This document shows positions 8,100 through 31,510 of a DNA stretch of 32,757 bases, one piece after another. The stretch is taken from assembly GCF_001499735.1 (NCBI RefSeq), contig NZ_LN848257.1, positions 457,867 through 490,623 of the forward strand, read 5' to 3'. Source of the stretch: Thiocapsa sp. KS1. GTDB taxonomy: Bacteria > Pseudomonadota > Gammaproteobacteria > Chromatiales > Chromatiaceae. The position numbers and the translations under genes were made by a program. The notes under the pieces are model-generated. The model searched no databases. It saw only the letters and a program-made list of their open reading frames with translations, and was not told the origin of the DNA. Numbering within the stretch: position 1 is the first letter of the stretch; each line of letters begins with the position of its first letter.

Positions 8100-8786
8100 A
8101 TGTCGGCAAGCATTCTCATCGTTGAAGACGACATGCGCATGGGGAGTGTTCTCAGGCGTCATTTGACACGCGCGGGTTACGCGGTATCGATTGCCGTCAA
8201 CGGATCCGAGATGCGCAGGCTCTATCGTAACCACGGGGCGGATCTGGTGCTGTTGGACCTCAACCTGGGTGCGGAGGACGGCATGAATCTGGCGCGCGAG
8301 CTCGTCTCCTCGACCCCCGTGACCGTCATCATCGTGACCGGTCGCGATGACCTCCAGGATCGCATCGATGGGCTGGACGCCGGTGCCGACGACTACATCA
8401 CGAAACCCTTCGAGGTCGAGGAGCTGCTCGCGCGCATCCGAGCCGTGCTCAGACGACACGCGTTCGAGGCAGGCGTTCACGACACGATCCAACTCGGCAC
8501 GGTGACGCTCGAGCCGAGCGCCATGGTCTTGAGGGATGCGTCCAGCGGAGTCTGCGTGCGATTGACCGAAACGGAATCTCGCATTCTGGCGAACTTGATG
8601 CGTCAGCACGGACGAGCCCTGAGCCGTACACAATTGCTGAACCGCGAGCCCCTGAACCCGGAAGACCGCACGGTCGATGTCCACATCGGCAACATTCGTC
8701 GCAAGCTGCGCGAAGGCGGTATCCGCAATCTCGTGATCTGGCCGGTGCGAGGCCATGGCTACCGCCTGAGGCTTGAGGGCGACTGA
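8100..8786 (+). CDS. OmpR-family DNA-binding response regulator
   Basis: This is a two-component transcription regulator of 228 residues. The receiver domain (about 1-120) has the acidic pocket E9-D10-D11, phospho-acceptor Asp53 in L-L-D-L-N, Thr80 and Lys102 (T-K-P-F). The C-terminal winged helix (about 130-226) shows L-T-E-T-E-S-R-I-L and D-V-H-I-G-N-I-R-R-K-L, typical of OmpR/PhoB output domains. No simple partner kinase sits next to it; the nearest kinase is the giant hybrid kinase at 10896, which has its own receiver, so the two may belong to one phosphorelay. The 224 bases upstream hold no recognisable gene; the ribosome-binding site is weak. The target genes are unknown. Confidence 0.92.
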   Translation: MSASILIVEDDMRMGSVLRRHLTRAGYAVSIAVNGSEMRRLYRNHGADLVLLDLNLGAEDGMNLARELVSSTPVTVIIVTGRDDLQDRIDGLDAGADDYITKPFEVEELLARIRAVLRRHAFEAGVHDTIQLGTVTLEPSAMVLRDASSGVCVRLTETESRILANLMRQHGRALSRTQLLNREPLNPEDRTVDVHIGNIRRKLREGGIRNLVIWPVRGHGYRLRLEGD

Positions 8787-9049
8787 CCGATTCCGACAGG
8801 CTCGAAGCGGATACCCGGTCAGGCCCGTTCGACCGGCTCGGAAACAGCGCAAGCCGGTGTCGATCCACGCTGCTCGGCGGTACCGTCGAGCACATAAGAC
8901 CTTTACAAATATTGACTTGAAGAGAACGAGGTCGGCTCTGCTTAATATACGATCGTTTCGAAGCTAATTGACGCGGCCAGGGGCCCGCTAGCGCCCGAGA
9001 GCAGGCTGTGCGATCGGGATCTGTGTCGTGTCTTGATTGGAGGGTCTCC

Positions 9050-10759
9050 ATGCATTTGATCTGTCTCGATGACGATCCTCGAATCGAGGCCGTTCTGGGC
9101 CGTTTCCTGAAGCGGTTCGGGCATGGTGTCGATTTCCATGTGTCTGTCGCCTCCTTCAAGGCCGCGCTCGAGTCGGATCTCCCCGATATTGTCCTCCTTG
9201 ATCTCGGTCTGGGCCGGGAGAACGGCATCGATGTCATCCACTGGCTGGCCGAGGTTCACCCCCGGATTCCCGTCGTGCTCCTCTCGGGGCATGGCGACGA
9301 TCTGCTCGATACCGCGCGGCGCGTCGCCCGCTCCACCGGGATTCAAGTTCTCGGAGCGGTATCGAAGTCGCGGATGGTCAAGGAGCTTCCCGCAATTCTG
9401 GGGAGGCGCGTCACGGCGACATCGCGAGGACCGCATCAAACCCTGCAAGCCCGGGATGCCATTACCCGCCAGGATTTGGAATGGCAGATCCGTGGCGGCG
9501 GCATCCTCCCCTATTTTCAACCCATCGTCTCGCCGGACAACGGGCGTCTGAAGGGTGTGGAGGTTCTCGCGCGCCTGCGGCTGCCGAGCGGACAGATCCT
9601 CGGTGCAGGCGAGTTCATTCCGCTCGCCGAATCGAGCGGGCTTATCTACGAGGTCACCGAGACCCTGTTCGAGCGCCTCATCGAGTCGACCGAGACATTG
9701 GAGGCATCCGGCCTGACCTTCATTTCGGTGAACCTGTCGCCGCTGATCCTGCAGCAGGAACGGGCCTTGGTCTTGGTGCGCCGTCTCGTCGACGGGCTTG
9801 CGGGGATCTGCGCCGTCAAGATCGAGATGACCGAGAGCGCCGCCAGCGCCTACCCCGACATCCTGCGCAGCGTGGCGGCTCAGATCCATCTCATGGGGGC
9901 CTCGCTGGCAATCGACGATTTCGGGATCGGCTATTCCTCGATGCGTGCTCTGGCGGAGCTGCCGTTCGATACGCTCAAGATCGATCTGTCGTTCGTCTCG
10001 GAGATGTTCGATTCGCCGAAGGCACTCAGATTGCTGCGTGCCATGATCGCCTTCGGCCGGACGCTGGAGATGCAGGTGGTTGCCGAGGGGGTGGAGACGG
10101 AGGCGCAGCGTCGATTGTTGATTGAGGCAGGCGTCGATCTCGCGCAAGGCTATCTGTTCGGAAAACCCATGACAGCGGAGGATTTGGCGAGCACCTTCTC
10201 CATATCGCGGGTAGCTGGCGAGTCCAAATGCGGGCCGGAGCCGAGCGTTTCGGCCGGGGGAGGGGATGGGGTCGGAGCTGGCAGGACCGTCATGGTCGTC
10301 GACGACGACCAGCGCATGCTGCATGCCACGGCACGCCTGGTGACGGCCTGGGGCTACCGATGCGAGACCTTCACCGATGCACGCACCGCATTGCAGGTGA
10401 GCGAAACCGCTGCACCGCAGCTTCTCATCGTCGACATCTACATGCCGGAGCTCGACGGGTTCGAGGTGATCAAACGGATGCGCCGGATCGCGCCCTCGAC
10501 GCGGATCATTGCCGTGAGCGGCGACGTGGTTCGCGGACATCACACCAACGTTCTGGATATGTGTCGTGTCTTGGGCTCGGATGCTGTTCTGCAAAAGCCG
10601 ATTGCCCCGGATCGACTCCGGGCCGCGGTCGAACGTCTGATCGGCGGACCGAGCCCGATCGAGTCGAGCGGTGCGACCGTCGAGTCCGAGTGCCCGCCCG
10701 AGCCGCAGCGGGTCGAGGAACCGCAGGGCACCGACCGCGCCGAGGTCCCGGGGACGTAG
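9050..10759 (+). CDS. REC-EAL-REC cyclic-di-GMP phosphodiesterase
   Basis: The 569-residue cytoplasmic protein joins two receiver domains to an EAL phosphodiesterase domain. REC1 (about 1-118) has Asp51 as the likely phospho-acceptor. The EAL domain (about 138-380) keeps every catalytic signature I can check: E171-V-L (in place of E-A-L), V-N-L-S-P, K-I-E-M-T-E-S, I-D-D-F-G-I-G-Y-S-S, L-K-I-D, A-E-G-V-E-T and Q-G-Y-L-F-G-K-P, so hydrolysis of c-di-GMP to pGpG is expected. REC2 (about 413-536) has Asp462 in I-V-D-I-Y-M-P. I choose ATG 9050 over an earlier GTG because GGAGGG (9039-9044) lies just before it. An AT-rich patch at 8891-8970 upstream may hold the promoter. The gene sits between a response regulator and a hybrid kinase, so phosphorylation probably controls it. 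Confidence 0.93.
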   Translation: MHLICLDDDPRIEAVLGRFLKRFGHGVDFHVSVASFKAALESDLPDIVLLDLGLGRENGIDVIHWLAEVHPRIPVVLLSGHGDDLLDTARRVARSTGIQVLGAVSKSRMVKELPAILGRRVTATSRGPHQTLQARDAITRQDLEWQIRGGGILPYFQPIVSPDNGRLKGVEVLARLRLPSGQILGAGEFIPLAESSGLIYEVTETLFERLIESTETLEASGLTFISVNLSPLILQQERALVLVRRLVDGLAGICAVKIEMTESAASAYPDILRSVAAQIHLMGASLAIDDFGIGYSSMRALAELPFDTLKIDLSFVSEMFDSPKALRLLRAMIAFGRTLEMQVVAEGVETEAQRRLLIEAGVDLAQGYLFGKPMTAEDLASTFSISRVAGESKCGPEPSVSAGGGDGVGAGRTVMVVDDDQRMLHATARLVTAWGYRCETFTDARTALQVSETAAPQLLIVDIYMPELDGFEVIKRMRRIAPSTRIIAVSGDVVRGHHTNVLDMCRVLGSDAVLQKPIAPDRLRAAVERLIGGPSPIESSGATVESECPPEPQRVEEPQGTDRAEVPGT

Positions 10760-10895
10760 GCGGCTCGGTTTTTCCTTCGAGGGGATCGATGTTGCTGACG
10801 CCTCGCGAGCCTCGACGTTCGGCGCAATCCGGCTCCGAAGGTCGTGTCAAGCAGCAATGGTCGATGCATGCACACTCGAGTGCGGAGCGACAGGT

Positions 10896-13800
10896 GTGAA
10901 GCAGCAGTCAAGTCTCGTCGATGCAGTGAAACCGGGTGCCGACATGGGCCCGGTTCGCATCGCCGCCCTCACGGTCTTGCTGGCCGTGCTCGCCGTGGCC
11001 GGCAACCACTTCAACCTTTCGCTCTTCTTCGGTTTGCAGATCATCTTTGGATCCGTGGCCGTGCTCTTGGCGATTGTTTGGCTCGGGACCCGAGCCGGCT
11101 TGATCGTCGCAGCCGCCTCCGGTGCCTATACCTATCTCCTTTGGGATCATCCCTTCACGCTGTTGATTCTTTTGGCCGAGGCGGCTTTCGTGGGCTGGCA
11201 TCGGGATCGTGCGCGCAGGCGCGGTTGCGAGGTGCCGGCCCTCGGTCTCTCGGTGACGCTCTATTGGGCTTTGATCGGCATCCCCTTGGTTCTGCTGTTC
11301 TATCGTGTCGTCATGGGGATGGTCTGGCACCAGACCCTTGTGGTTGCGGTCAAGCAGTCCTTAAACGGCATCCTGAACGCGGCCTTGGCGGGGTTGGTCA
11401 TCATCGTCGTCGCCTTGGTCAGACGTCGCCCCGGCAGCCTCTCGGCACGGCAGGTGTTGTTCACGCTCTTCCTCTCGGGGTCTCTACTGCCGTCGATCCT
11501 CGTCGTGGCATGGGAGAATCGCGATCTCAAGGATCGTTTGGAGCTGGATCTCGCCGATCGTTTGAGGACATTCGGCGTGCTCGCGATCCACGATCTCGAC
11601 ACACATGCACACGAAGGGCCGACAGGGGCGTCCGAGATTCAGGCCCATGTGCAGGAGATGACCCGGCTCTTCGCCGCCACATTGCCCGAGCATGCAGAGC
11701 TCAAGGTCCGCCCGACCGGTCCGCCCGGGGACCTTGCGCCGATCGCGAGTGTCCCGAATAGAAGCCTTTCCCGAACCGCGGCAGAGGATTTGGTCATTTC
11801 ACTGCCGGAGGATTGGCATCCCTCGCGCATGGCGCTCTGGCGACAAGCGCACTATCGCATGATCCTGCCGCTTGCTGCCCCGACATTCGGCGAGGCTCTG
11901 TTGATCGAGCTCAGTGCGGCCCCGCTGGTCGACGAGCTGCACCGGGTGGTTCTGCGGCTGCTGACAGTCCTGTTGGCGATCGCGGGGATCGCGATCCTGC
12001 TGGCCGACCGCGTCTCATTGTTGCTGGTGCGTCCATTGAAGCAGCTCGTCGAGATCGCGACCGCATTGCCCGCTCGGATCGTCACGGGCGAGACGGTGGC
12101 CGTCCCGTCGTCCGGGCTCCTGACCGAGGGGCGTGTGCTGACCGAAGCCTTCGGTGTCATGGCCGACGGTCTCGCCGACAGCTTCGCGGCGATCGAGCGC
12201 GAGCGCGACACGCAAATCCGGCTGCGCTCCGTTCGGGATCTGCAGGAGCAGATGCTGGCCGGTTTATCGGCGTCCGGGGAAGACGAGCGCACGGCTTCAG
12301 AGCGGCTCTGTACCCTGGTTGAAGCCCTTGTCCCGACATGCCGCTGTGTTTTGTTCAGGCAGGGTTCGGCCGACTCCCTCGTGCACTTCGCCGGGTTCGG
12401 CCTTGGTGCTGCCGAGCAAACGGCCCTGGATCGCCGGTTGAGCAACGGGAATCCCGGCGAAGCGTTGCTCTCGGAGTCCGCGAGTCGGGTCTTTGTCGTG
12501 GAGTCGGCCGCGGATGCGGTCGGTACGGATGCCGCCGGTACGCAGGAGCCTGTCATCCTCCCGAATGTCCGCAGGGCCTTCTGGTGGTGCTGCCCTTTTT
12601 TCGCGCAAGACGGCAGACCCGCGGGCCTCCTGGCGATTGGTCCGTCTCGATTGCGCGAGCCCGACGCGGCGGTGCCGGAGATTCTGGAGACGGCGGCGGA
12701 CCTCGCCGCGCTGGCATTCGACACCCTGCGCACCCGTCGCCGCCATGCCGTTCTGATCAAGGCACTGACGCAGGCCGGCACCGGGATCGTCGTTGCGCGC
12801 CGAGTCGGCGAATCGGATTTCCGCATCAGCTATGTCAATCAGGGTTTCGAGACGCTGACCGGCTATCGAGCGGACGAGGTCATGGGTCTGAACTGTCGCC
12901 TTCTTCAGGGCGAGGACCGCGATCAGCCGGAACGCGCGAGGATTCGGGCCGCGCTTGCGGCCGGCGAGACCTGCCAGGTCACGCTGCGCAACTACCGAAA
13001 GGACGGAACGCGGTTCTGGAATGCCCTGAATCTCGCCCCGCTGTTCGACTCCCGGGGCGAGGTCACGCACTACGTCGGCATCCAGCAGGATCTGACGGCG
13101 GTGCACAAGGCTATGGAGCATCTGGCCCGCAGCGAAGCCTCCTTGCGCGAGGCGCAGGCGACCGCGCACCTCGGCAGTTGGGATCTGGATTACGTCGGCG
13201 GCCGGCTCGAATGGTCCGACGAGACGTTTCGACTCCTCGGCTATGCGCCGGGCGCCGTGCAACCGAGCCGTGATGCCTTCTTTGCGGTCGTGCACGTGGA
13301 GGATGTGGCGCGGGTTCGAGCCGAGATGGACGCCGCGCTGACGCGTCCCGACGGTCATTATGCCGTCGAGCATCGGGTGCTGGGTCCGGACGGCGTGCTC
13401 AGGATCCTGCGCGAGGAGGGGCGCGCGTATCTCGCCGACGACGGCACGCCGGTCAGGCTTGCCGGGACCAGTCTAGACATTACCGCGCAGCGCGCGGTCG
13501 AAGATGCCTTGCGGGTGCAGGAAGAGCGGTATCGACTGGTCGTCGAGAACATCGAGGATCTGGTGGTCCGCACCGATGGACAGGGCCGATTCGAGTATGT
13601 CAGCCCCTCGTATTGCCGCCTTTTCGGTCGCAACGAGGCCGAGCTGATCGGTGGCCACTTCATGCCGCTTGTCCATCCGGACGACCGAGAGCGCACGGCG
13701 GAGGCGATTGCTGCCCTGCAGAACCCTCCTTACACCTGTCTGGTCGAGCAACGCGCCGAGACGGTGCTCGGCTGGCGATGGTTGCAGTGGGTCGATCGCG

Positions 13801-16800
13801 CCGTTGTCGACGCGACCGGCCGGATCGGGTCGATTGTCGGGATCGGACGCGACATCACGGAACGCAAGGTAGCGGAGCTGGCGTTGGCGGAGGAGCGTCG
13901 CCGTCTGTCCGACATCATCGACGGCACGCGGATCGGGACCTGGGAGTGGGATCTCGTCACGAACGTCTTGACCTTGAATCGGCGTTGGGCCGAGATGCTC
14001 GGACACCGCCTCGAAGATCTGATGCCGACCACCATCGAGACCTGGCGGTACTTCTGTCATCCCGAGGATCTCCTGCAAGCCGAGGCCGAGCTCGCTCGGC
14101 ATCTCGGCGGCGAGACCGAGCACTACCGCCTCGAGGTGCGGATGCTGCACAGCGACGGCCATTGGATCTGGGTCCACGACCAGGGACGCATCTCGGCACG
14201 CGATGCGCAGGGTCGGCCTCTACGCATGGCCGGTACCCACGAGGACATTACCGACCGTAAGGAGGCCGAGCTCGAGCTGATTCAACGCGAGGCTCTCGAG
14301 CGCGAGCTCCTCGGGTTGGCCTCGGACTTCGTCGCCGTCTATGACGAGAACCTCGACCCGCTGATCGATCGAACGCTCGAGCGGCTCGGCAGTTTTACCC
14401 GATCCGATCGGGCCTATGTGTTCCGAATAGATCCGATAGCCGACACCATGAGCAACAGCCATGAGTGGGTGGCCCCGGGGGTCGAGCCGATGATCGAGCA
14501 TCTGCAAAACCATCCGATCGAGCATTACTCCGCCTCGATGCGGGAGCTCGAGTCCGGGCTGACGGCTGTAGTTCCCCGTGTCGCGGATCTACCGGACGCC
14601 TGGTCGGCGGAGCGCAAGATCCTCGAGCTTCAATCGATCCAGTCGGTCGTCCTGGTGCCCCTGATGCAGGATCAACGCCTGGTCGGTTTCGTCGGCTTCG
14701 ATGCTGTCCAGGCGCCGCGCGACTGGTCGGAGGCGGAGGTTCGCTTCCTGCGGGTGTTCGCGAGCATCCTGGTGAGTGCATTCGCGCGTGCCCGCACCTA
14801 CTCGGAGCTGCACGAAAGCAATCAGCGTTACGACGAGCTCGCGCTCCAAAGTCGAATCGTCAACTGGGAGGTCGACGCCGACGGTACCTACACCTATCTC
14901 AGTCCGGCGGTCGAGGCGGTCTGGGGTTACCGCTGCGAGGAGCTGGTCGGTCGGAGACATTTCTACGACCTCGCGCCCGAGACCGTGCGTGACCGCGTCA
15001 AGGCCGAGGGCTTGCAGCACTTTGGACACAGGGATCGCTTGACCGACTACGTCAACCCGATTCGTCGGCCCGACGGTTCGACGATCTGGGTGCTGACCAA
15101 CGGTGCCCCGGTCGTCGCCGCGGACGGCAGGCTGCTGGGATACCGTGGCACCGACGTCGATGTCAGCGAGCGGCATCGCGTGCAGGAGCAGCTCGCGGAA
15201 AGCGAGGCACGTCTCAGCGCGGTCTTCGAGAATGCACCTATCGGGATCGCGATCGCGGGTCCCAATCGGCGGCTACATCTGGCCAACCGTGCGCTTGGTG
15301 AGTTTCTCGGCTATGCCACGCAGGATCTGGTCGGGATGCGCTTTGACGATCTGAGCTGTGCGGATGATCTCGTGAATGAGCTTCCCCTGTTCCGTGACCT
15401 CTTGGCGGGAAAGCGGGATGTCTATCGGATCACCAAGCGCTACTGCAAGCGTGACGGCTCGCTTGCCTGGGGCGATCTGAGGGTCGTTGTCTTGCCCGAA
15501 GGAGGCGTCGACCGGCCCGTCACGCTCGGCATGGTCGAGGACATCACCGAGTTTCAGGCGGCGACCGAGCGTCGCCGTGAGCTCGAGGCAGCGATGGCGC
15601 GTTATACCGAGAATCTGGAGACACTGGTCGATCTGGCGAGCCGATCCCTGTCCGTCGACGAGGAGCTCCCCGCTTTGCTGGAGCTGGGCTGCTCGGGATT
15701 GGTGCTGGAGGCTGCCGACATCGGGGCTATCGAAGAGGGTCCGACCTACCGTCCGGTGACCTGGTATCCGCACGACAGGATGGCCGGAAGCGGCTCCGGG
15801 TCCGAATGCATGCTGAGCGCCGACATGGCCGACGCAGAGTCCGGAGTGCCCCGTGTTCTGGTCGGCGAGCAGTTGCCCGCCCAGGCTCGGGAGGCGGGGT
15901 ACGCTTCGTGCGTCGCGATGATGTTGCGCTGGACGGCACCGAAGGGTGCGGCAAACGCCCTGATGATCCGGTTCTGGGAACGCTCGGCGCGTTCGGAGCT
16001 CTCGGGTCCCGATCGGGAGCTGATCCGCCTGATCGGGCAACGCATCGTCGCACAGCAGTTCGAGCACCAATTGCAGGATGCGCTCATCCATTCGAAGGAG
16101 CGCGAGACCATCGGTCATCTGGCGAGCGGCGTGGCGCACGACTTCAACAACCTGCTCGGGGTGATCGACGCCAACCTCTATTACCTGGAGGCTATCCTCG
16201 GCGATGAGCATGGCGATCCGGAGGTGGCTCAGGTCATCGAGGAAACCCAAAGCGCGCTCGGTCAAGCGAAGGTCGTCACCTCGGGCATGCTGTCGCTGAG
16301 TCGTGCCGGCGGCATCGTACTGGAGACCGTGCCGATCGAGAAGACGATTCGTGAGCTGGTGACGATCCTGAAGCAGATCCTCCCCGCCAAGATTCAGCTC
16401 GCCTTGGATCTTCAGCCCGGGCTCGACGCCCAAAGCAATGCCGCATTTCTCCAAGCGGCCTTGTTGAATCTCGTCCTGAACGCGCGTGATGCTATGCCCG
16501 ACGGCGGGAATCTTGCGATCGAGGTGCGGACGGTCGCATGGGATGACTCGGTCCCGCTTGCAGTCGGACGACTGGATGAGGGCGAGTATGTCCAGGTCCG
16601 GGTCATCGATACCGGGTGCGGGATGTCCGAGGCGACTCTGGATAGACTCTTCGAGCCGCTGTTTTCGACCAAGGCCAAGCAGCGCGGGCATGGGCTGGGA
16701 ATGTTCATGGTTCAGGAGTTCGTGATGCGCTCCGGTGCGGGCTTGATCGTGGCCTCTCGGATCGGGAAGGGGACCGAATTTAGGCTGCTGATGCCGCGCG

Positions 16801-17231
16801 CGAGCGCAGGAGCTGCAACGCTCGGTGATCTCGGCACGGCCGACGCGCATCCGGCCAAGGCCATGCTGCGGATTCTCGTCGTCGACGACGACCCGCGTGT
16901 TCGGGACTCGGTCGGGCGTCTGCTGATCCTCGAGGGCAGTCTGGTCGCCTTCGCCGAGAACGGCGCGGACGCCCTCGCGTGCTTGCGCCGCGACGCCGAC
17001 TTTGACCTGGTGCTGTCGGATCTGGCGATGCCGGTCATGGATGGTGCGGCGCTTTGTCGTGCGCTGGCCGAGGCGTTTCCGAGCCTACCCGTGATCCTGA
17101 TGACCGGACAGGCCCCGTCGCTGTTTCTGCTCGACGATCTTCCGAGCAAGCCGACCGTGCTGCGAAAGCCCATCGATCAGCGCGCGCTGCGCGCCGCGAT
17201 TGTGGAGGCGACTGCCCGAGTCGGCTCCTGA
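10896..17231 (+). CDS. Giant membrane-bound hybrid histidine kinase with GAF, LOV and PAS sensors
   Basis: A 2,111-residue sensor kinase. Order, approximate residues: several membrane segments (17-210), a probable periplasmic stretch, another membrane helix (350-380), a HAMP-like linker, GAF (460-613), LOV (619-738), PAS (749-868), PAS (872-995), PAS (999-1123), GAF (1129-1302), PAS (1309-1428), PAS (1432-1558), a weaker GAF-like region (1567-1723), HisKA with phospho-acceptor His1748 in G-V-A-H-D-F-N-N, HATPase (1845-1968; N-A-R-D-A-M, D-T-G-C-G-M, G-L-G-M-F), and a receiver with Asp2042 in S-D-L-A-M-P. I prefer GTG 10896 because GGAG (10884-10887) lies 8 bases upstream; the frame is open earlier (ATG 10857) and an ATG at 10944 is also possible. 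Likely partners are the neighbouring response regulators. Confidence 0.93.
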   Translation: MKQQSSLVDAVKPGADMGPVRIAALTVLLAVLAVAGNHFNLSLFFGLQIIFGSVAVLLAIVWLGTRAGLIVAAASGAYTYLLWDHPFTLLILLAEAAFVGWHRDRARRRGCEVPALGLSVTLYWALIGIPLVLLFYRVVMGMVWHQTLVVAVKQSLNGILNAALAGLVIIVVALVRRRPGSLSARQVLFTLFLSGSLLPSILVVAWENRDLKDRLELDLADRLRTFGVLAIHDLDTHAHEGPTGASEIQAHVQEMTRLFAATLPEHAELKVRPTGPPGDLAPIASVPNRSLSRTAAEDLVISLPEDWHPSRMALWRQAHYRMILPLAAPTFGEALLIELSAAPLVDELHRVVLRLLTVLLAIAGIAILLADRVSLLLVRPLKQLVEIATALPARIVTGETVAVPSSGLLTEGRVLTEAFGVMADGLADSFAAIERERDTQIRLRSVRDLQEQMLAGLSASGEDERTASERLCTLVEALVPTCRCVLFRQGSADSLVHFAGFGLGAAEQTALDRRLSNGNPGEALLSESASRVFVVESAADAVGTDAAGTQEPVILPNVRRAFWWCCPFFAQDGRPAGLLAIGPSRLREPDAAVPEILETAADLAALAFDTLRTRRRHAVLIKALTQAGTGIVVARRVGESDFRISYVNQGFETLTGYRADEVMGLNCRLLQGEDRDQPERARIRAALAAGETCQVTLRNYRKDGTRFWNALNLAPLFDSRGEVTHYVGIQQDLTAVHKAMEHLARSEASLREAQATAHLGSWDLDYVGGRLEWSDETFRLLGYAPGAVQPSRDAFFAVVHVEDVARVRAEMDAALTRPDGHYAVEHRVLGPDGVLRILREEGRAYLADDGTPVRLAGTSLDITAQRAVEDALRVQEERYRLVVENIEDLVVRTDGQGRFEYVSPSYCRLFGRNEAELIGGHFMPLVHPDDRERTAEAIAALQNPPYTCLVEQRAETVLGWRWLQWVDRAVVDATGRIGSIVGIGRDITERKVAELALAEERRRLSDIIDGTRIGTWEWDLVTNVLTLNRRWAEMLGHRLEDLMPTTIETWRYFCHPEDLLQAEAELARHLGGETEHYRLEVRMLHSDGHWIWVHDQGRISARDAQGRPLRMAGTHEDITDRKEAELELIQREALERELLGLASDFVAVYDENLDPLIDRTLERLGSFTRSDRAYVFRIDPIADTMSNSHEWVAPGVEPMIEHLQNHPIEHYSASMRELESGLTAVVPRVADLPDAWSAERKILELQSIQSVVLVPLMQDQRLVGFVGFDAVQAPRDWSEAEVRFLRVFASILVSAFARARTYSELHESNQRYDELALQSRIVNWEVDADGTYTYLSPAVEAVWGYRCEELVGRRHFYDLAPETVRDRVKAEGLQHFGHRDRLTDYVNPIRRPDGSTIWVLTNGAPVVAADGRLLGYRGTDVDVSERHRVQEQLAESEARLSAVFENAPIGIAIAGPNRRLHLANRALGEFLGYATQDLVGMRFDDLSCADDLVNELPLFRDLLAGKRDVYRITKRYCKRDGSLAWGDLRVVVLPEGGVDRPVTLGMVEDITEFQAATERRRELEAAMARYTENLETLVDLASRSLSVDEELPALLELGCSGLVLEAADIGAIEEGPTYRPVTWYPHDRMAGSGSGSECMLSADMADAESGVPRVLVGEQLPAQAREAGYASCVAMMLRWTAPKGAANALMIRFWERSARSELSGPDRELIRLIGQRIVAQQFEHQLQDALIHSKERETIGHLASGVAHDFNNLLGVIDANLYYLEAILGDEHGDPEVAQVIEETQSALGQAKVVTSGMLSLSRAGGIVLETVPIEKTIRELVTILKQILPAKIQLALDLQPGLDAQSNAAFLQAALLNLVLNARDAMPDGGNLAIEVRTVAWDDSVPLAVGRLDEGEYVQVRVIDTGCGMSEATLDRLFEPLFSTKAKQRGHGLGMFMVQEFVMRSGAGLIVASRIGKGTEFRLLMPRASAGAATLGDLGTADAHPAKAMLRILVVDDDPRVRDSVGRLLILEGSLVAFAENGADALACLRRDADFDLVLSDLAMPVMDGAALCRALAEAFPSLPVILMTGQAPSLFLLDDLPSKPTVLRKPIDQRALRAAIVEATARVGS
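12750..13110 (+). other. LOV blue-light sensor domain within the hybrid kinase
   Basis: Residues about 619-738 of the kinase match the LOV subclass of PAS domains, which bind FMN and form a light-driven cysteinyl adduct. The photoactive motif is G-L-N-C-R-L-L-Q with Cys667 (canonical form G-x-N-C-R-F-L-Q). The other FMN contacts known from YtvA are also present: Asn666, Arg668, Gln671, Arg684, Asn699 (N-Y-R-K-D-G), Asn709 (F-W-N) and Gln730 (G-I-Q). The only visible departure is Leu for Phe after C-R. None of the other PAS domains in this protein has this cysteine motif. Confidence 0.9.
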
Positions 17232-19591: not shown

Positions 19592-19885
19592 GCTTTGACG
19601 CGATCGTCCTTGGTCCGAGGGGCCCGGATCCCGTTGTACGCTCGGCGGGGCTTGGCTGGAGGCTCGGTCGCGTCTATGGCATCTTTCGAGGATGGCTCGG
19701 ATCGTGTTTTCCTGATGTGGAAACCGATGCGCGGTCTTGCGCTGTCCCGGGCCATCGGCGAGCATAGCCGAGAGTCTGGCTCGGGCTTACGATTTGGCCT
19801 TCGAGCCGAGGGCGTTTCAGCGGCCGCTGTCCGGAGTCCAATATTCAGGGGGAAACGTGATGTGGCCCGACCGGGAGGGAGATCA

Positions 19886-21973
19886 TTGAGCAGGCGCGTT
19901 TCGGGGATCCGACAACGCCTGTCGGCGGAAGAGATCGGGGAGCCCGAGTTCTTCCGGCGCATGATCGCGGCCAGCGCCGACCGTTTTGCCTATCTCGATC
20001 GAGATCTCACGTATCGTGCCGTAAATCCGGCTTACCTGATGTCCTGGGGATTGAAGCCCGAGCAGGTGATCGGTCGCCGCGTCGATGAGGTCTTGGATCG
20101 GGACCTCTATGCGGAGGTGATCTTGCCGCGCTTGGAGGCGTGCCTTGCCGGACACACAGTCGTGTACGAGGCCCAGCTCCCGCGGCGAGGTGTGCGGGTC
20201 GGCTGGGGAGAGGTGACCTACATCCCTTGGCTGGACCGGGTCGGGAGGGTCGAGGGGATCGTGGTCTGCGTGCACGATATCACGGCCCGGCACGCGGCGA
20301 GCAATTCGCTCAGCCGTCTCGGGGAGATCGTCGAGAAGGCGCAGACCGAGGTCTACGTCTTCGATCCCGAGCACTTGTACTTCGAGCAGGTCAATCAGGG
20401 TGCCCGGACCAACCTGGGGTTCGACATGAACGAGCTGACCGTGATGACCCCTTTGGATCTGATGCCCGATTACGACCCGCAAACCTTCTCGCGGTTGCTC
20501 GAGCCGCTCCGCCGAGGCAGCAAGAGCCAGGTTATCGTGGAGACGCGGCATCGGCGCAAGGACGGAACCTGCTATCCCGCCGAGATCCGCCTGCAGCTCC
20601 TCGGCACGGAGCCGCGCTTTGTTGCCTGGGTGATGGATACGACGGAGCGCCGGCGTGCCGAGGAGGCGATCAAGCATCTTGCGTTCATGGATCCGCTCAC
20701 TGCGCTGCCCAACCGAAGGCTCCTGATGGATCGCTTGGAACGCGCCATCGCGGCGAGCCGACGCAGCCATCGCTTGGGCGCCTTGATCTTCATCGATCTG
20801 GACGATTTCAAGACACTCAACGATACCCTTGGCCATGATCAAGGTGACCGATTGCTGCGTCAGGTCGCCAAACGTCTCTCCTCCTGTCTGCGAGAATCCG
20901 ACACCCTCGCCCGGCTCGGCGGGGACGAGTTTGTGGTGATGCTGGAGCGCCTGAGTCGTAGAGCCGAGGATGCAGCAGCGCAGGCGGAGACCCTCGCGAA
21001 CAAGCTTCTCATGGCATTGCGCGAGCCTTGCGGGCTCGAGTATCGGGAGTATCGGTGCTCGGCGAGCATCGGTGTCACGCTGTTCGGTCCGCGGGCGGTC
21101 AGCGTCGAGGAGCTGATGAAGCAGGCGGACTTGGCGATGTACCGGGCGAAGGCTTCGGGACGGGATACCCTGCGTTTCTTCGACCCGGCGATGCAGGCCG
21201 AGGTGAGCGCCCGCGCCGCACTTGCGGCGAATCTTCGTCGGGGCCTGCAGCACGGTGAGTTCCTCCTCCACTACCAGATGCAGGTCGATGCGGACGGTCG
21301 AATGACGGGTGCGGAAGGACTCCTGCGCTGGCAACACCCGCAACGCGGGCTGCTCGAGCCCGCTGCCTTCATCCGTCTCGCCGAGGAGACCGCAACGATC
21401 CTGCCCCTTGGTCGGCAGGTTCTGGACATGGCCTGCGCGCAGTTGGCGACCTGGTCGGAACGACCCGAAACCGCCGACCTCATCCTGGCGGTCAATATCA
21501 GTGCACTCCAATTTCACCACCCGGATTTCGTCGATCAGGTCCTTGCCGCCGTGGATCATCGAGGATGTGATCCCAACCGACTGAAACTGGAGATCACCGA
21601 GAACCTCTTGCGGGACGACCGCGACGGCACGATCGCGAAGATGTCGGCGCTGAAGGCGCGGGGCATCAGCTTTGCGCTGGACGACTTCGGAACCGGCTAT
21701 TCCTCTCTGACCGATCTCGGGCGGCTGCCGTTGAAGGAGCTCAAGATCGATCGCTCCTTCGTGCAGGATCTCGTGACCAACGAGAGGGATGCGGCGATCG
21801 CACGCACCATCATCGCCCTGGGAGACACGCTCGATCTGGATGTCATTGCCGAGGGGGTCGAGACCGAGGCCCAACGCGACTGGCTCGCCGGACACGGCTG
21901 CCATGCCTTTCAGGGTTACCTGTTCGGCCGGCCGGGTCCGGCTGCGACATCCGCACCACGGCTCGATGCGTGA
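19886..21973 (+). CDS. PAS-PAS-GGDEF-EAL bifunctional c-di-GMP protein
   Basis: A soluble 695-residue protein with two PAS domains (about 10-130 and 140-265), a GGDEF diguanylate cyclase domain (about 270-430) and an EAL phosphodiesterase domain (about 447-690). The cyclase site is intact (G345-G-D-E-F) and an inhibitory I-site, R336-E-S-D339, lies exactly five residues before it. The EAL domain reads E477-G-L and keeps V-N-I-S, L-E-I-T-E-N, D-D-F-G-T-G-Y-S-S, L-K-I-D, A-E-G-V-E-T and Q-G-Y-L-F-G. Both activities may be present. The frame is open back to 19595, but homology begins only near residue 10 of the form given. I chose TTG 19886 for its GGAGG 7 bases upstream; GTG 19862 is a good alternative. 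The 294 bases before it show no other gene. Confidence 0.92.
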   Translation: MSRRVSGIRQRLSAEEIGEPEFFRRMIAASADRFAYLDRDLTYRAVNPAYLMSWGLKPEQVIGRRVDEVLDRDLYAEVILPRLEACLAGHTVVYEAQLPRRGVRVGWGEVTYIPWLDRVGRVEGIVVCVHDITARHAASNSLSRLGEIVEKAQTEVYVFDPEHLYFEQVNQGARTNLGFDMNELTVMTPLDLMPDYDPQTFSRLLEPLRRGSKSQVIVETRHRRKDGTCYPAEIRLQLLGTEPRFVAWVMDTTERRRAEEAIKHLAFMDPLTALPNRRLLMDRLERAIAASRRSHRLGALIFIDLDDFKTLNDTLGHDQGDRLLRQVAKRLSSCLRESDTLARLGGDEFVVMLERLSRRAEDAAAQAETLANKLLMALREPCGLEYREYRCSASIGVTLFGPRAVSVEELMKQADLAMYRAKASGRDTLRFFDPAMQAEVSARAALAANLRRGLQHGEFLLHYQMQVDADGRMTGAEGLLRWQHPQRGLLEPAAFIRLAEETATILPLGRQVLDMACAQLATWSERPETADLILAVNISALQFHHPDFVDQVLAAVDHRGCDPNRLKLEITENLLRDDRDGTIAKMSALKARGISFALDDFGTGYSSLTDLGRLPLKELKIDRSFVQDLVTNERDAAIARTIIALGDTLDLDVIAEGVETEAQRDWLAGHGCHAFQGYLFGRPGPAATSAPRLDA

Positions 21974-28080: not shown

Positions 28081-31038
28081 CTATGCGACGACGGCTGGTT
28101 CGGGCGGTGTTCGATCGCGGTGGATATCCGGATCCGCCGACCGCTTAAGGTTCAGCGCCAGCAACCGCGCGAGGATCTCATCGTCGGGCATGTCCGGTGC
28201 GTAGTCCGACCACCCATAGGCAGTGGCAACTGCGGCATCGAGCGTCTTGTGCGCGTTGTCGAGCCACGCCGGACGCGCGTTGTAGAGGTTGGTCAGGGTG
28301 CGCTTCTTCAGCTCCGCCGCGTGCTCGGGCTTGGGGATGATCCGGTCCGGGTAACCCTGCACGACTTCAGGCACGCGATCGATCCACTCGGGAGGATTCA
28401 GCCAATTCTCGCGGAGCTGGTTCAGGCGATGGGCCGCTTCGGCGATCGCCAGCGCGACCGGGCGCAGCTCCTGGGCGACAGGCGGAAGGATGATCCCGGT
28501 GTCCAGGGTCTCGGTCGGGCCGGCCGTGTCGGCGGGCGTCAGGCCCTCGGGGAAGGGAAAGGTCTCGAAGGTTGTGGTCGGCGTGTAGCGCGGGTCGTTG
28601 CCCTTGCCCAACCAGGTGCAGAGTCCCAGCGACCAGAGTTCATGGAATCGCGAATGGAGGATGCCGAAGGTGGTGTTGTCCGATCGGGCGATGACGATCA
28701 GTTGCTGATCTGGAAGCACTCTGGTATCGAACCACACGAACATCCGATGTTTAGCGGTCATTGGTGTTGCGATTACGCGACTGTATTCGCGCGTTGCCGA
28801 TCTCAATCCGGGCCGCGCTTCCTCGTGAATCCACCAACGTCTTCGGGTTCGCTCTCTTCTGACAGTGTCTCTGTAAGGCTTAACTTGGGCCATGAGATAA
28901 GCGAAAGGCGCCTCGTAAAGGGCGGCTTCGGCCTCCGGCATGTTCACCCCGAAGTCGATTATCCAGGTATCCGTAGCGCGGCCAGTGACATCTTTGCCGT
29001 TCAACCAGGGCTTGATCACGTCGCTGTTGGGTCGGCCGTGAGGATTCGGAAGCAGAAGCCATGCCCTCGCGATGCTCCCGCCAATGTCGAAATCACCGTA
29101 CTTCTTGGTTCCCTGAAAAGCGATTCGATTATCGATAAGCCTTGAAGCCAGTGAAAGGTTGGCGGAATTGATGCCATTGAATTGGGTGATCCCCTGGAGG
29201 TGCCGATTGATCTCGCCGACGACTTGACCATCCAGTTTCGGCTGCCGAGTCAACTCACGAACACCAAATGCCACAAGTGATACGCGGACTGCAGCTCCCT
29301 CGTTGACCCAAGGCTCATCCGACCAAGCGTTGAAGATGGTTCCTGTTTGAATAATTCGATCTAGAACTCCCCGATTACTCGGCTGACGGATGCTGTTGGT
29401 CGCGACCAAGCCCGCGCACTTCGCCTGGCCCGCCTCGATCTGCGCCCGCGCCTTCTCGAACCAGTAGGTGACGAGATCCGCGCCGCCCGGCACGCGCCCG
29501 CCGAAGAGTTTGTTCAAAGTCTCGAAGTAGGCATCCCCTAGAATCGACCGCTTCTTGCTGCCACCCAGGAAAGGCGGATTCCCTACGATGGCATCCGCAT
29601 CGGGCCACTCCGGCTCGGTTCCATCTGCGTTCACGATGGCGTCGCGCTGCTGGATGGTGTCGAGCGGTTTTAGGATGGGGTTCTTCGACAACGAGAACCC
29701 GTGCCCGAGCATCCACTGAATCTCGCCGATCCAGATGGTGACCCGTGCCAGCTCCGCCGCGTAGGGATTCAGCTCGATGCCGAGCACGTTCTCGGGTCCC
29801 ACCATCGGAAAGCCGCGGGGCAAGCCAAGGCCCTCGGCTTCGAGCAACACCAGATGCTCCAGATCCTTCAGCCCAAGCAGCGAGAGCAGGAGGAAGTTGC
29901 CGGACCCGCACGCCGGATCGAGCACGCGAAACCGCCGCAGACGCTCGAGAAAGGTTTGTAGAAGGGTCTGAGCCCGACCCTTGGCCCGCGTACTGGCCGC
30001 CGTGGACTTTGCATTCTTGGCCTTGTCCATGATGGCTGCGATCCGATCGCGCAGCCCCGTCCACTCGTCCCGCAAGGGATCCAGGACAACCGGATCGACG
30101 ATCCGCATGATCGAGGGCTCGTCGGTGTAGTGGGCGCCGAGCTGCGCCCGCTTGTCCGGGTCGAGCCCGCGCTCGAACAGGGTGCCGAAGATGGACGGCT
30201 GAATCGCCGACCAATCGAGCCCGGCCAGCGCCAGGAGCTGTTGAAGATCGGTCTTCTCCAGGGGTAGGGCATCGCGCGCGGTGAACAGACCGCCGTTGAA
30301 CCAATCGATCCGTTTGTAGTTGACTCGCCCGCCGCTGGCCATTGCCCCGAACAGCTCTTCGAGCATCCCTTGCGCGCTGTCAGGCTCGTCGATCCCGGCT
30401 TCAAGCAGTTGCGAGAAGAACTTGTCCGGCAGAAGCCCGATATCCTCGGCGAACAGACAGAAGAGCACCTGGTGGCTGAAGTGCGCGACCCGCAGCGGAT
30501 CATGGCCGCGCGAGCGCCACACCTGCGCGAGATCGCCGAGCTTGCCGGCCGCTGCCTCGGTGAGCTCGGCACGCGTCTGGCGCGGGCGCAGCTGGTCGGG
30601 ATCCGTGAAGGCCCATTTGAGGAGCCGCCGCTTGGCATGATCGCGCAGGTCTTCGAGCGTCAGCTCGTGAATCACCGGAACCAGGCCGGTGAAGGCGGTA
30701 TGGATGCGGATTGTCTGGATGTCCGAGACAATCAGCAGCGGGGGATACTCCAGCGACGGGGTGTAGATCTGGAGCTGTTTGAAGGCTTCGTCGAGATCTC
30801 GGCCAGGCCCCTTGTACTCCCAACCGAAGTGCTTGCGCTTCCAGACGTCGGCCCAGCCGTCTCCTCCGCCGGCCTTCTTTGCGCCCTTCTCGAACGCATA
30901 CCAGGTGCCGCTCGGATCCGCTTCGACCGGCGCCTTCTCTCCGAGCATCTGGCACAGGTCATTGAAGTGCGATTGAGAGGACGCTCTCTCGGTCAAGGTG
31001 ACCCCTTTCCACCGTGAGATGAATTCGTCTGGTGACAT
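28081..31038 (-). CDS. MmeI-like single-chain type II restriction-modification enzyme
   Basis: A 985-residue protein combining an N-terminal nuclease with an N6-adenine methyltransferase and target-recognition region, as in MmeI (type IIL/IIG). The PD-(D/E)XK site is Asp64 with E74-Y-K76, the same D-x9-E-x-K spacing as MmeI. A helical connector follows. The SAM-binding motif D374-P-A-C-G-S-G-N and the catalytic N487-P-P-F are intact. The final ~350 residues would hold the recognition domain and C-terminal helical part. Start ATG 31038 has AAGGAG 6 bases upstream. It would cut and modify DNA with one polypeptide, so no separate methylase or specificity gene is needed, and none is nearby. It lies directly downstream of higBA. 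YeeA/DrmMI-type methylases are related, but no helicase partner is present. Confidence 0.88.
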   Translation of the reverse strand: MSPDEFISRWKGVTLTERASSQSHFNDLCQMLGEKAPVEADPSGTWYAFEKGAKKAGGGDGWADVWKRKHFGWEYKGPGRDLDEAFKQLQIYTPSLEYPPLLIVSDIQTIRIHTAFTGLVPVIHELTLEDLRDHAKRRLLKWAFTDPDQLRPRQTRAELTEAAAGKLGDLAQVWRSRGHDPLRVAHFSHQVLFCLFAEDIGLLPDKFFSQLLEAGIDEPDSAQGMLEELFGAMASGGRVNYKRIDWFNGGLFTARDALPLEKTDLQQLLALAGLDWSAIQPSIFGTLFERGLDPDKRAQLGAHYTDEPSIMRIVDPVVLDPLRDEWTGLRDRIAAIMDKAKNAKSTAASTRAKGRAQTLLQTFLERLRRFRVLDPACGSGNFLLLSLLGLKDLEHLVLLEAEGLGLPRGFPMVGPENVLGIELNPYAAELARVTIWIGEIQWMLGHGFSLSKNPILKPLDTIQQRDAIVNADGTEPEWPDADAIVGNPPFLGGSKKRSILGDAYFETLNKLFGGRVPGGADLVTYWFEKARAQIEAGQAKCAGLVATNSIRQPSNRGVLDRIIQTGTIFNAWSDEPWVNEGAAVRVSLVAFGVRELTRQPKLDGQVVGEINRHLQGITQFNGINSANLSLASRLIDNRIAFQGTKKYGDFDIGGSIARAWLLLPNPHGRPNSDVIKPWLNGKDVTGRATDTWIIDFGVNMPEAEAALYEAPFAYLMAQVKPYRDTVRRERTRRRWWIHEEARPGLRSATREYSRVIATPMTAKHRMFVWFDTRVLPDQQLIVIARSDNTTFGILHSRFHELWSLGLCTWLGKGNDPRYTPTTTFETFPFPEGLTPADTAGPTETLDTGIILPPVAQELRPVALAIAEAAHRLNQLRENWLNPPEWIDRVPEVVQGYPDRIIPKPEHAAELKKRTLTNLYNARPAWLDNAHKTLDAAVATAYGWSDYAPDMPDDEILARLLALNLKRSADPDIHRDRTPPEPAVVA

Positions 31039-31159
31039 ACCCGCTCCTTGTTGATGTCTCTGACGGCTTGTCCCGAGCCGACGTGATCGCCGCTTCGACA
31101 ACCGCCACGTGCATCGCCGCTTGGGTTGCGTCCGAGCAAGGCAGACGTTTGCCTCGCCA

Positions 31160-31510
31160 TTAAGCCGCTCGAGGAGTGACCTCGGCGGCAACGGTTGCTC
31201 CAACTGTCCGTTTCGCCATCTCCAACTCGTAATTCTGCTGGAGGTTCAGCCAGGACTGAGGGGTCGTGCTGAAGTAACGGGCAAGCCGGAGCGCCGTGTC
31301 GGCGGTGATCGAACGCGTGCCGTTCAGGATCGCAGTGATCCGATTGGGCGGGACACGCAACGCTTTGGCCAGGGCATTCGCCGATAGACCCAGTGGCTCC
31401 ATGAAGTCCTCGCGCAGGATCTCTCCCGGCGTGATCGGAGGCATGAGGTCTGCGCCGTCGGCGATGTCGGAGAAGTCGATCTCGTCCAGGTGTTCTCTTC
31501 GTATGCTCAT
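31160..31510 (-). CDS. higA: HigA-family antitoxin
   Basis: A 116-residue antitoxin with a Cro/C1-type helix-turn-helix. Residues 24 onward match the family: P-P-I-T-P-G-E-I-L-R-E-D-F-M-E-P-L-G-L-S, then A-L-A-K-A-L-R-V-P-P-N-R-I-T-A-I-L-N-G-T-R-S-I-T as the DNA-binding helices, and T-A-L-R-L-A-R-Y-F. It should bind HigB and repress its own promoter. It follows higB by 45 bases on the same strand, in the toxin-first order typical of higBA. The 23-residue N-terminal leader is longer than in minimal HigA, and the start could lie at the methionine before P-P-I-T; no strong ribosome-binding site settles this. Confidence 0.9.
   Translation of the reverse strand: MSIRREHLDEIDFSDIADGADLMPPITPGEILREDFMEPLGLSANALAKALRVPPNRITAILNGTRSITADTALRLARYFSTTPQSWLNLQQNYELEMAKRTVGATVAAEVTPRAA

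Follow-up and report, generated by a model that had tools for sequence, protein, structure and literature searches.

A predicted LOV photoreceptor domain in a membrane hybrid histidine kinase of Thiocapsa, present in some orthologues and absent from others

The window, by which we mean the whole 32,757-nucleotide stretch analysed here, comes from a genome of Thiocapsa, a purple sulfur phototroph. A first-pass annotation made from the letters alone had guessed that the host was phototrophic, and the genome indeed carries two reaction-centre genes (PF00124, E = 1.5e-110 and 2.9e-103). The central feature is a gene for a large hybrid histidine kinase, preceded by two response-regulator genes (Table 1). 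Its reading frame is open from 10671 to 17231 on the forward strand (2,186 codons), which sets an upper limit of 2,186 aa on the protein. The modules follow in the order six hydrophobic segments, HAMP-like region, GAF1, LOV, PAS1-3, GAF2, PAS4-5, a stretch without a Pfam match that we suspect to be a third GAF, HisKA-like region, HATPase, and receiver. The HAMP-like helix region had no match in Pfam and was assigned by eye. The assignment as a hybrid histidine kinase rests on the predicted histidine acceptor, the HATPase, and a receiver with its aspartate; His1748 and Asp2042 were read from the sequence, and HisKA itself scored below its cut-off. About 1,000 residues, with six or seven domains among them, separate the LOV from His1748. 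The window also contains a gene for an MmeI-like restriction-modification enzyme (28081-31203, reverse strand).

Table 1. Features of the kinase locus, in positions of the window.
Feature	Position	Strand	Basis or remark
OmpR-type response regulator	8100..8786	+	Assigned by eye; conserved neighbour, 5' of kinase
REC-EAL-REC gene, predicted c-di-GMP phosphodiesterase response regulator	9008..10759	+	Start uncertain; 5' of kinase
Hybrid histidine kinase gene	10896..17231	+	Inferred start at GTG 10896, giving 2,111 aa; alignments with several orthologues begin at residue 1
N-terminal membrane region	10896..12188	+	Six hydrophobic segments above hydropathy cut-off, then HAMP-like helix region
GAF1+LOV cassette, residues 432-741	12189..13118	+	In-frame absence in T. 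marina and two G001 copies
GAF1	12282..12722	+	Weak: GAF_2 26.4 bits, cut-off 28.6 not reached
LOV domain, residues 622-737	12759..13106	+	Profiles, PDB matches, pocket residues
Codon TGT of Cys667, predicted adduct-forming cysteine	12894-12896	+	Numbering from GTG 10896
PAS1, PAS2, PAS3	13206..14240	+	
GAF2	14349..14771	+	
PAS4, PAS5	14892..15557	+	
His1748, predicted phospho-accepting histidine	16137..16139	+	HisKA-like region; Pfam HisKA 17.4 bits, cut-off 26.9 not reached
HATPase_c	16440..16799	+	Pfam, E = 4e-18
Receiver domain, predicted phospho-accepting Asp2042	16872..17201	+	Response_reg, E = 1.9e-17

To judge from its sequence, the stretch from residue 622 to 737 is almost certainly a LOV domain. 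The first-pass annotation had proposed one at 12750-13110, a few nucleotides wider than the limits we use (12759-13106), and we found the motif GLNCRLLQ with Cys667 where it had been placed. All seven of the FMN-contact residues that it had named (N666, R668, Q671, R684, N699, N709, and Q730) are present. Their offsets from Cys667 (-1, +1, +4, +17, +32, +42, and +63) equal the spacing in phototropin LOV2. A six-frame scan of the window found a LOV-type motif once, in the kinase LOV. Searching the PDB with the domain (phmmer) returned 158 distinct sequences at E <= 0.001, the best at 2.7e-33 (7r5n, which we take to be a Pseudomonas-type LOV); the best 60 of the 158 are LOV proteins as far as we could recognise the entries. 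The three displayed alignments all cover the Cys, Arg, Gln, and both later Asn, and the contact residues except the first Asn align with an identical residue in each. By these sequence measures, the match to LOV proteins is not a chance one.

A comparison of LOV with general PAS profiles, which had been proposed as a check, came out on the LOV side. Taken alone, the domain scores 126.7 bits with YtvA_fam against 69.6 bits with sensory_box, so that the best LOV model outscores the PAS model by 57 bits; the NCBIfam blue-light kinase model gives 107.4 bits. Over the 2,186-aa frame, YtvA_fam matched a single stretch and none of the five other PAS domains. The YtvA family equivalog NF052652 matched the LOV part only, at 141.5 bits (whole-protein cut-off 250), and the LOV histidine kinase equivalog NF052306 reached 130.4 bits (cut-off 450). 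The forecast that automatic annotation would see only PAS domains was borne out: Pfam names PAS families alone at the LOV, and in NCBIfam TIGR00229 ('PAS domain S-box') passes and the LOV models stay below their cut-offs. Routine annotation is therefore very likely to overlook the LOV. In a tree of LOV and PAS sequences (40 rows, 134 columns, long branches), the LOV label requires three changes against a shuffled mean of 13.6, a far closer grouping than in the shuffles, though the LOVs were not all recovered as one clade.

The first-pass annotation had also pointed to a Phe-to-Leu change beside the motif and suggested that it might alter adduct lifetime. The replacement itself stands: among the seven orthologous full-motif LOVs, the position after NCR is Phe in five and Leu in two (the window and T. 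roseopersicina). The effect on adduct lifetime is weakly founded, as the position varies among Phe, Leu, and Ile; Ile occupies it in eight of ten short LOV proteins of the genus. Among 369 genomes of the class, the DNA pattern GxNCR-Leu(CTN)-LQ occurs in two, once in the window and once within a 48-aa open stretch that we take as chance, and GxNCRFLQ in eighteen, at nineteen places (pattern matches, not inspected singly). Leu at this position is rare in the scan, with TTR-coded Leu and AGR-coded Arg lying outside the pattern.

Eleven genomes of the genus were searched, including the window's own, with at most seven candidates scored per genome. A kinase with a complete LOV was found in six: the window's genome (G000), T. 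roseopersicina DSM 217 (G002), Thiocapsa S07.Bin152 (G003), T. imhoffii DSM 21303 (G006), Thiocapsa UBA6158 (G008), and G010. The kinase of T. roseopersicina is 97-98% identical to the window's. Two genomes carry the kinase without the LOV, namely T. marina 5811 (G005) and G001, where it is present in two copies that are 96% identical; G007 has a 45% identical kinase that also lacks the LOV. Only matches to PAS parts were found among the candidates scored from G004 and G009. A fragment from the Chromatiaceae genome SJ691 supplies a seventh complete LOV. Of eight orthologues with a GAF-LOV homologue, the window's included, seven have NCR[FL]LQ and all seven contact residues. The orthologous kinase of Halochromatium glycolicum (L067:5674-6093) keeps the GAF-LOV, with a LOV 57% identical and the motif NCLFFH; Arg+1, Gln+4, Arg+17, and Asn+42, by positions read from the alignment, are replaced, and the pocket is ruined. 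Two side observations concern the genomes: G001 holds, besides its two LOV-less copies, a broken third one with part of the EAL gene next to it (L050, L051, L052), and the window's assembly (10.38 Mb in 43 contigs, one of 5.07 Mb) is roughly double the other ten of the genus in size (3.3-6.1 Mb) and perhaps mixed.

The absence in T. marina and G001 is exact. Both read SFA followed directly by RLA, at the places of window residues 431 and 742, with exactly 310 residues (GAF1 and LOV) missing in frame. In G001, a single contig, the best LOV-profile match is a short LOV protein, so the kinase cassette has not moved to another place. In a tree of the core region, the three LOV-less rows form a group (100/100) nested within a group of LOV-bearing Thiocapsa (96/99), which makes loss the simpler reading; the tree favours T. 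marina and G001 as probable cases of secondary loss of the cassette. G007 and G029 are very long rows in this tree, and the chosen outgroup does not fall on one side of a branch. The least count is three changes, part of it on the Halochromatium side, where gain and loss could have come in either order. Because relatives keep an otherwise intact frame without the LOV, and because the H. glycolicum pocket is ruined, light input to the kinase is at most modulating and dispensable.

Where the LOV is present, it is well kept. Its identity to the window is 82-86% in four Thiocapsa orthologues (leaving out T. roseopersicina, 97%); SJ691 gives 78%. For those four genomes, GAF1 is 55-60%, GAF2 74-79%, and PAS1-5 64-81% identical. 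By identity, the LOV is the best-conserved sensor module among LOV-bearing orthologues. Mean dN/dS over six to ten pairs is about 0.20 for the LOV, 0.18 for PAS2, 0.17 for the HATPase, and 0.51 for GAF1. These ratios indicate that the LOV is under selection where present, with PAS2 equally constrained.

Each linker was counted from the D-[ILV]-[TS] end of a LOV or PAS domain as far as an anchor within the PAS that follows. The LOV-to-PAS1 linker is 33 residues in all seven sequences that have the junction (H. glycolicum included), as are the direct PAS-PAS linkers measured; T. imhoffii, in which PAS1 is missing, has 40 (33+7). In LOV-less proteins, the first PAS follows the HAMP-like anchor at a distance of 25 (T. 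marina and G001; G007), 32 (Halochromatium A10; Lamprobacter and H. roseum), or 39 (G029). These are five distinct junctions in eight rows, and all are 4 modulo 7, a heptad result that carries our choice of anchors by eye. The counts exclude PAS3-to-PAS4, which has GAF2 between, and rows that span modules missed by the anchors (S07 162, Halochromatium A10 335, Lamprobacter and H. roseum 334, H. glycolicum 339, G007 337, G029 168 and 210), part of which were re-measured with anchors set by eye. The LOV end lies at a variable distance from the HAMP-like anchor (302, 297, 298, 299), because GAF1 intervenes. In coiled-coil signalling, successive sensor modules are described as spaced by heptads (PMC6798134). 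Since the measured linkers differ by whole heptads, the LOV appears to sit in the coiled-coil register, built into a register-keeping array from which it could be removed without breaking the register.

The product of the adjoining REC-EAL-REC gene matches the EAL profile at E = 7.9e-56, and the motifs E(V)L, N, E, DDFG, K, E, and Q can be read by eye, judged against the consensus; by profile and catalytic residues together, it is a predicted phosphodiesterase. By tblastn, this gene adjoins the kinase in eight of ten loci of the genus (L048, L050, L051, L058-L061, and L063, with partial matches at L051 and L061) and in all four Halochromatium/Lamprobacter loci (L064-L067). Part of it lies beside the broken third G001 copy (L052), and tblastn did not find it beside the divergent G007 kinase (L056) or in G029 (L057). 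The OmpR-type gene was found in ten of fifteen loci, that of G007 included; the same search did not find it in L050, L052, L057, L064, or L065, of which L064 ends close by. Another gene concerned with c-di-GMP, encoding PAS-PAS-GGDEF-EAL, lies at 19595-21973 on the forward strand, 3' of glycosyltransferase-4 and NusG-like genes.

We propose the following route for a light signal. Blue light would drive formation of a covalent adduct between Cys667 and bound FMN, and a flip of Gln730 together with the helix after the LOV would pass the signal on. It would then run along in-register PAS and GAF dimers linked by coiled coils and shift the kinase/phosphatase balance at His1748, in one direction or the other. 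The phosphoryl group would go to the attached receiver and probably also to receivers in the two adjoining gene products, REC-EAL-REC and the OmpR-type protein, so that light may be coupled to c-di-GMP breakdown and to transcription. Blue-light control of a phosphorelay, to which the first-pass annotation had pointed, remains an inference, as does phosphate transfer among the kinase, the REC-EAL-REC protein, and the OmpR-type regulator. We put the chance that the LOV is photoactive and coupled to the kinase at roughly three in four on the present sequence evidence, though the coupling could be weak, given some 1,000 residues to the histidine. That GAF and LOV together form an optional input cassette of a conserved Thiocapsa membrane hybrid kinase is probable. 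For output to c-di-GMP through the neighbouring REC-EAL-REC protein, the odds are about even.

Other readings of the domain deserve weighing. That it is an ordinary PAS domain whose cysteine is there by chance, and no flavin photoreceptor, would agree with the general PAS names in Pfam, the missed equivalog cut-offs, and the 40-row tree, which does not show the LOVs as one clade; against the complete pocket, the 57-bit lead of the LOV model, and a PDB match at 2.7e-33, this is very improbable. If the domain does bind flavin, it might serve mainly as a redox or oxygen sensor within the PAS array, with light incidental. The array belongs to what is presumably a facultatively anaerobic type of phototroph, and protonation of N5, hence signalling, can come about by photoreduction and not by the adduct alone, according to PMC6798134. 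A pure redox role would have no need of the photoactive cysteine, which is kept in all seven orthologous full-pocket LOVs, and we regard this reading as unlikely.

Slightly less likely again, the LOV may take up FMN and form the adduct yet not be coupled to the kinase, persisting as a passive remnant before its loss. The cassette is gone from T. marina and G001, by loss according to the tree, and the ruined H. glycolicum pocket marks the domain as dispensable in some lineages; strong conservation where the LOV is present, and linkers in register, speak for a coupled domain instead. The fuller form of the coupled, photoactive reading is a swappable GAF-LOV cassette in an OmpR/REC-EAL-REC/hybrid-kinase phosphorelay, by which blue light sets c-di-GMP breakdown in some species, while in sister species the kinase has naturally lost its response to light through an in-frame, in-register excision and still works. 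We hold this fuller form tentatively, at a little under an even chance. If true, one kinase would exist in natural LOV-plus and LOV-minus forms, and these would show that coiled-coil register governs how sensor modules are gained and lost.

Several known systems resemble this one in part. The best sequence matches to the kinase LOV (E = 2.7e-33) are Pseudomonas short LOVs, which share the positions of the Cys, Arg, Gln, and later Asn; we take the PDB entries named 'Sensory box protein' to be PpSB1/PpSB2 and those of SBW25 and W619. These short LOVs stand alone, whereas the Thiocapsa LOV belongs to a membrane hybrid kinase with at least eight sensor modules in all, and position -1 is Asn here but Asp in the three displayed PDB rows. 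The 6rhg series, going by its entry name rather than full architecture, also has its LOV within a 'multi-sensor hybrid histidine kinase', and its host is likewise an anoxygenic phototroph, we believe Chloroflexus aggregans, of another phylum. The histidine kinases of NF052306, presumably the Brucella type, likewise have a LOV upstream of the kinase, but the Thiocapsa protein (130.4 bits, cut-off 450) is a membrane hybrid kinase with a receiver. With YtvA and the engineered kinase YF1, it shares the pocket (YtvA_fam 126.7 bits on the domain). The coiled-coil linker logic is also in common (PMC6798134). Points of difference are the lack of a STAS domain in the Thiocapsa kinase and a LOV that feeds a PAS array and not the kinase directly. 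Kinases have also been constructed from Pseudomonas short LOVs (PMC13322254), and histidine kinases are given as the commonest effector of prokaryotic LOV receptors (PMC6798134).

A LOV hybrid kinase is thus of a known class, and the value of this one is in the natural plus/minus series. Within one orthologous kinase, the series runs from a complete LOV through a ruined pocket to a LOV missing at a coiled-coil junction, and could be used to test how a long PAS array transmits light input and what disappears along with it. It also suggests that purple sulfur bacteria may have a route from blue light to c-di-GMP. Literature searches, by title and start of abstract for a Thiocapsa LOV protein and by title for Thiocapsa among papers on LOV kinases and c-di-GMP, found none; subscription papers lay mostly outside their scope, which makes both weak evidence of absence.

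Loss of the kinase LOV does not mean that all blue-light sensing is lost, since short LOV proteins, PHY-domain genes, and BLUF genes are also present. Ten of the eleven genomes of the genus, some that lack the kinase LOV among them, encode a short LOV protein bearing the Cys motif, and none was found in G007; the motif is NCRILQ in eight of the ten, NCRFLQ in one, and NCRFLH in one. PHY-domain genes were found in six of six genomes searched and BLUF in two of six. The Cys motif was read at 25 loci (24 and the window's kinase) of 38 LOV-profile matches, so further Cys-bearing LOVs may exist. The short LOV of the window's own genome lies at G000:C1:3624440-3624814 (L090; L002), with GHNCRILQ in a frame of 225 aa. 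Cys-bearing LOVs also occur in other large proteins: L079 and L085, of another genus of the family (G029), with NCRFLQ and NCRFLH, and L096, of Thiocapsa UBA6158, with NCRFLQ.
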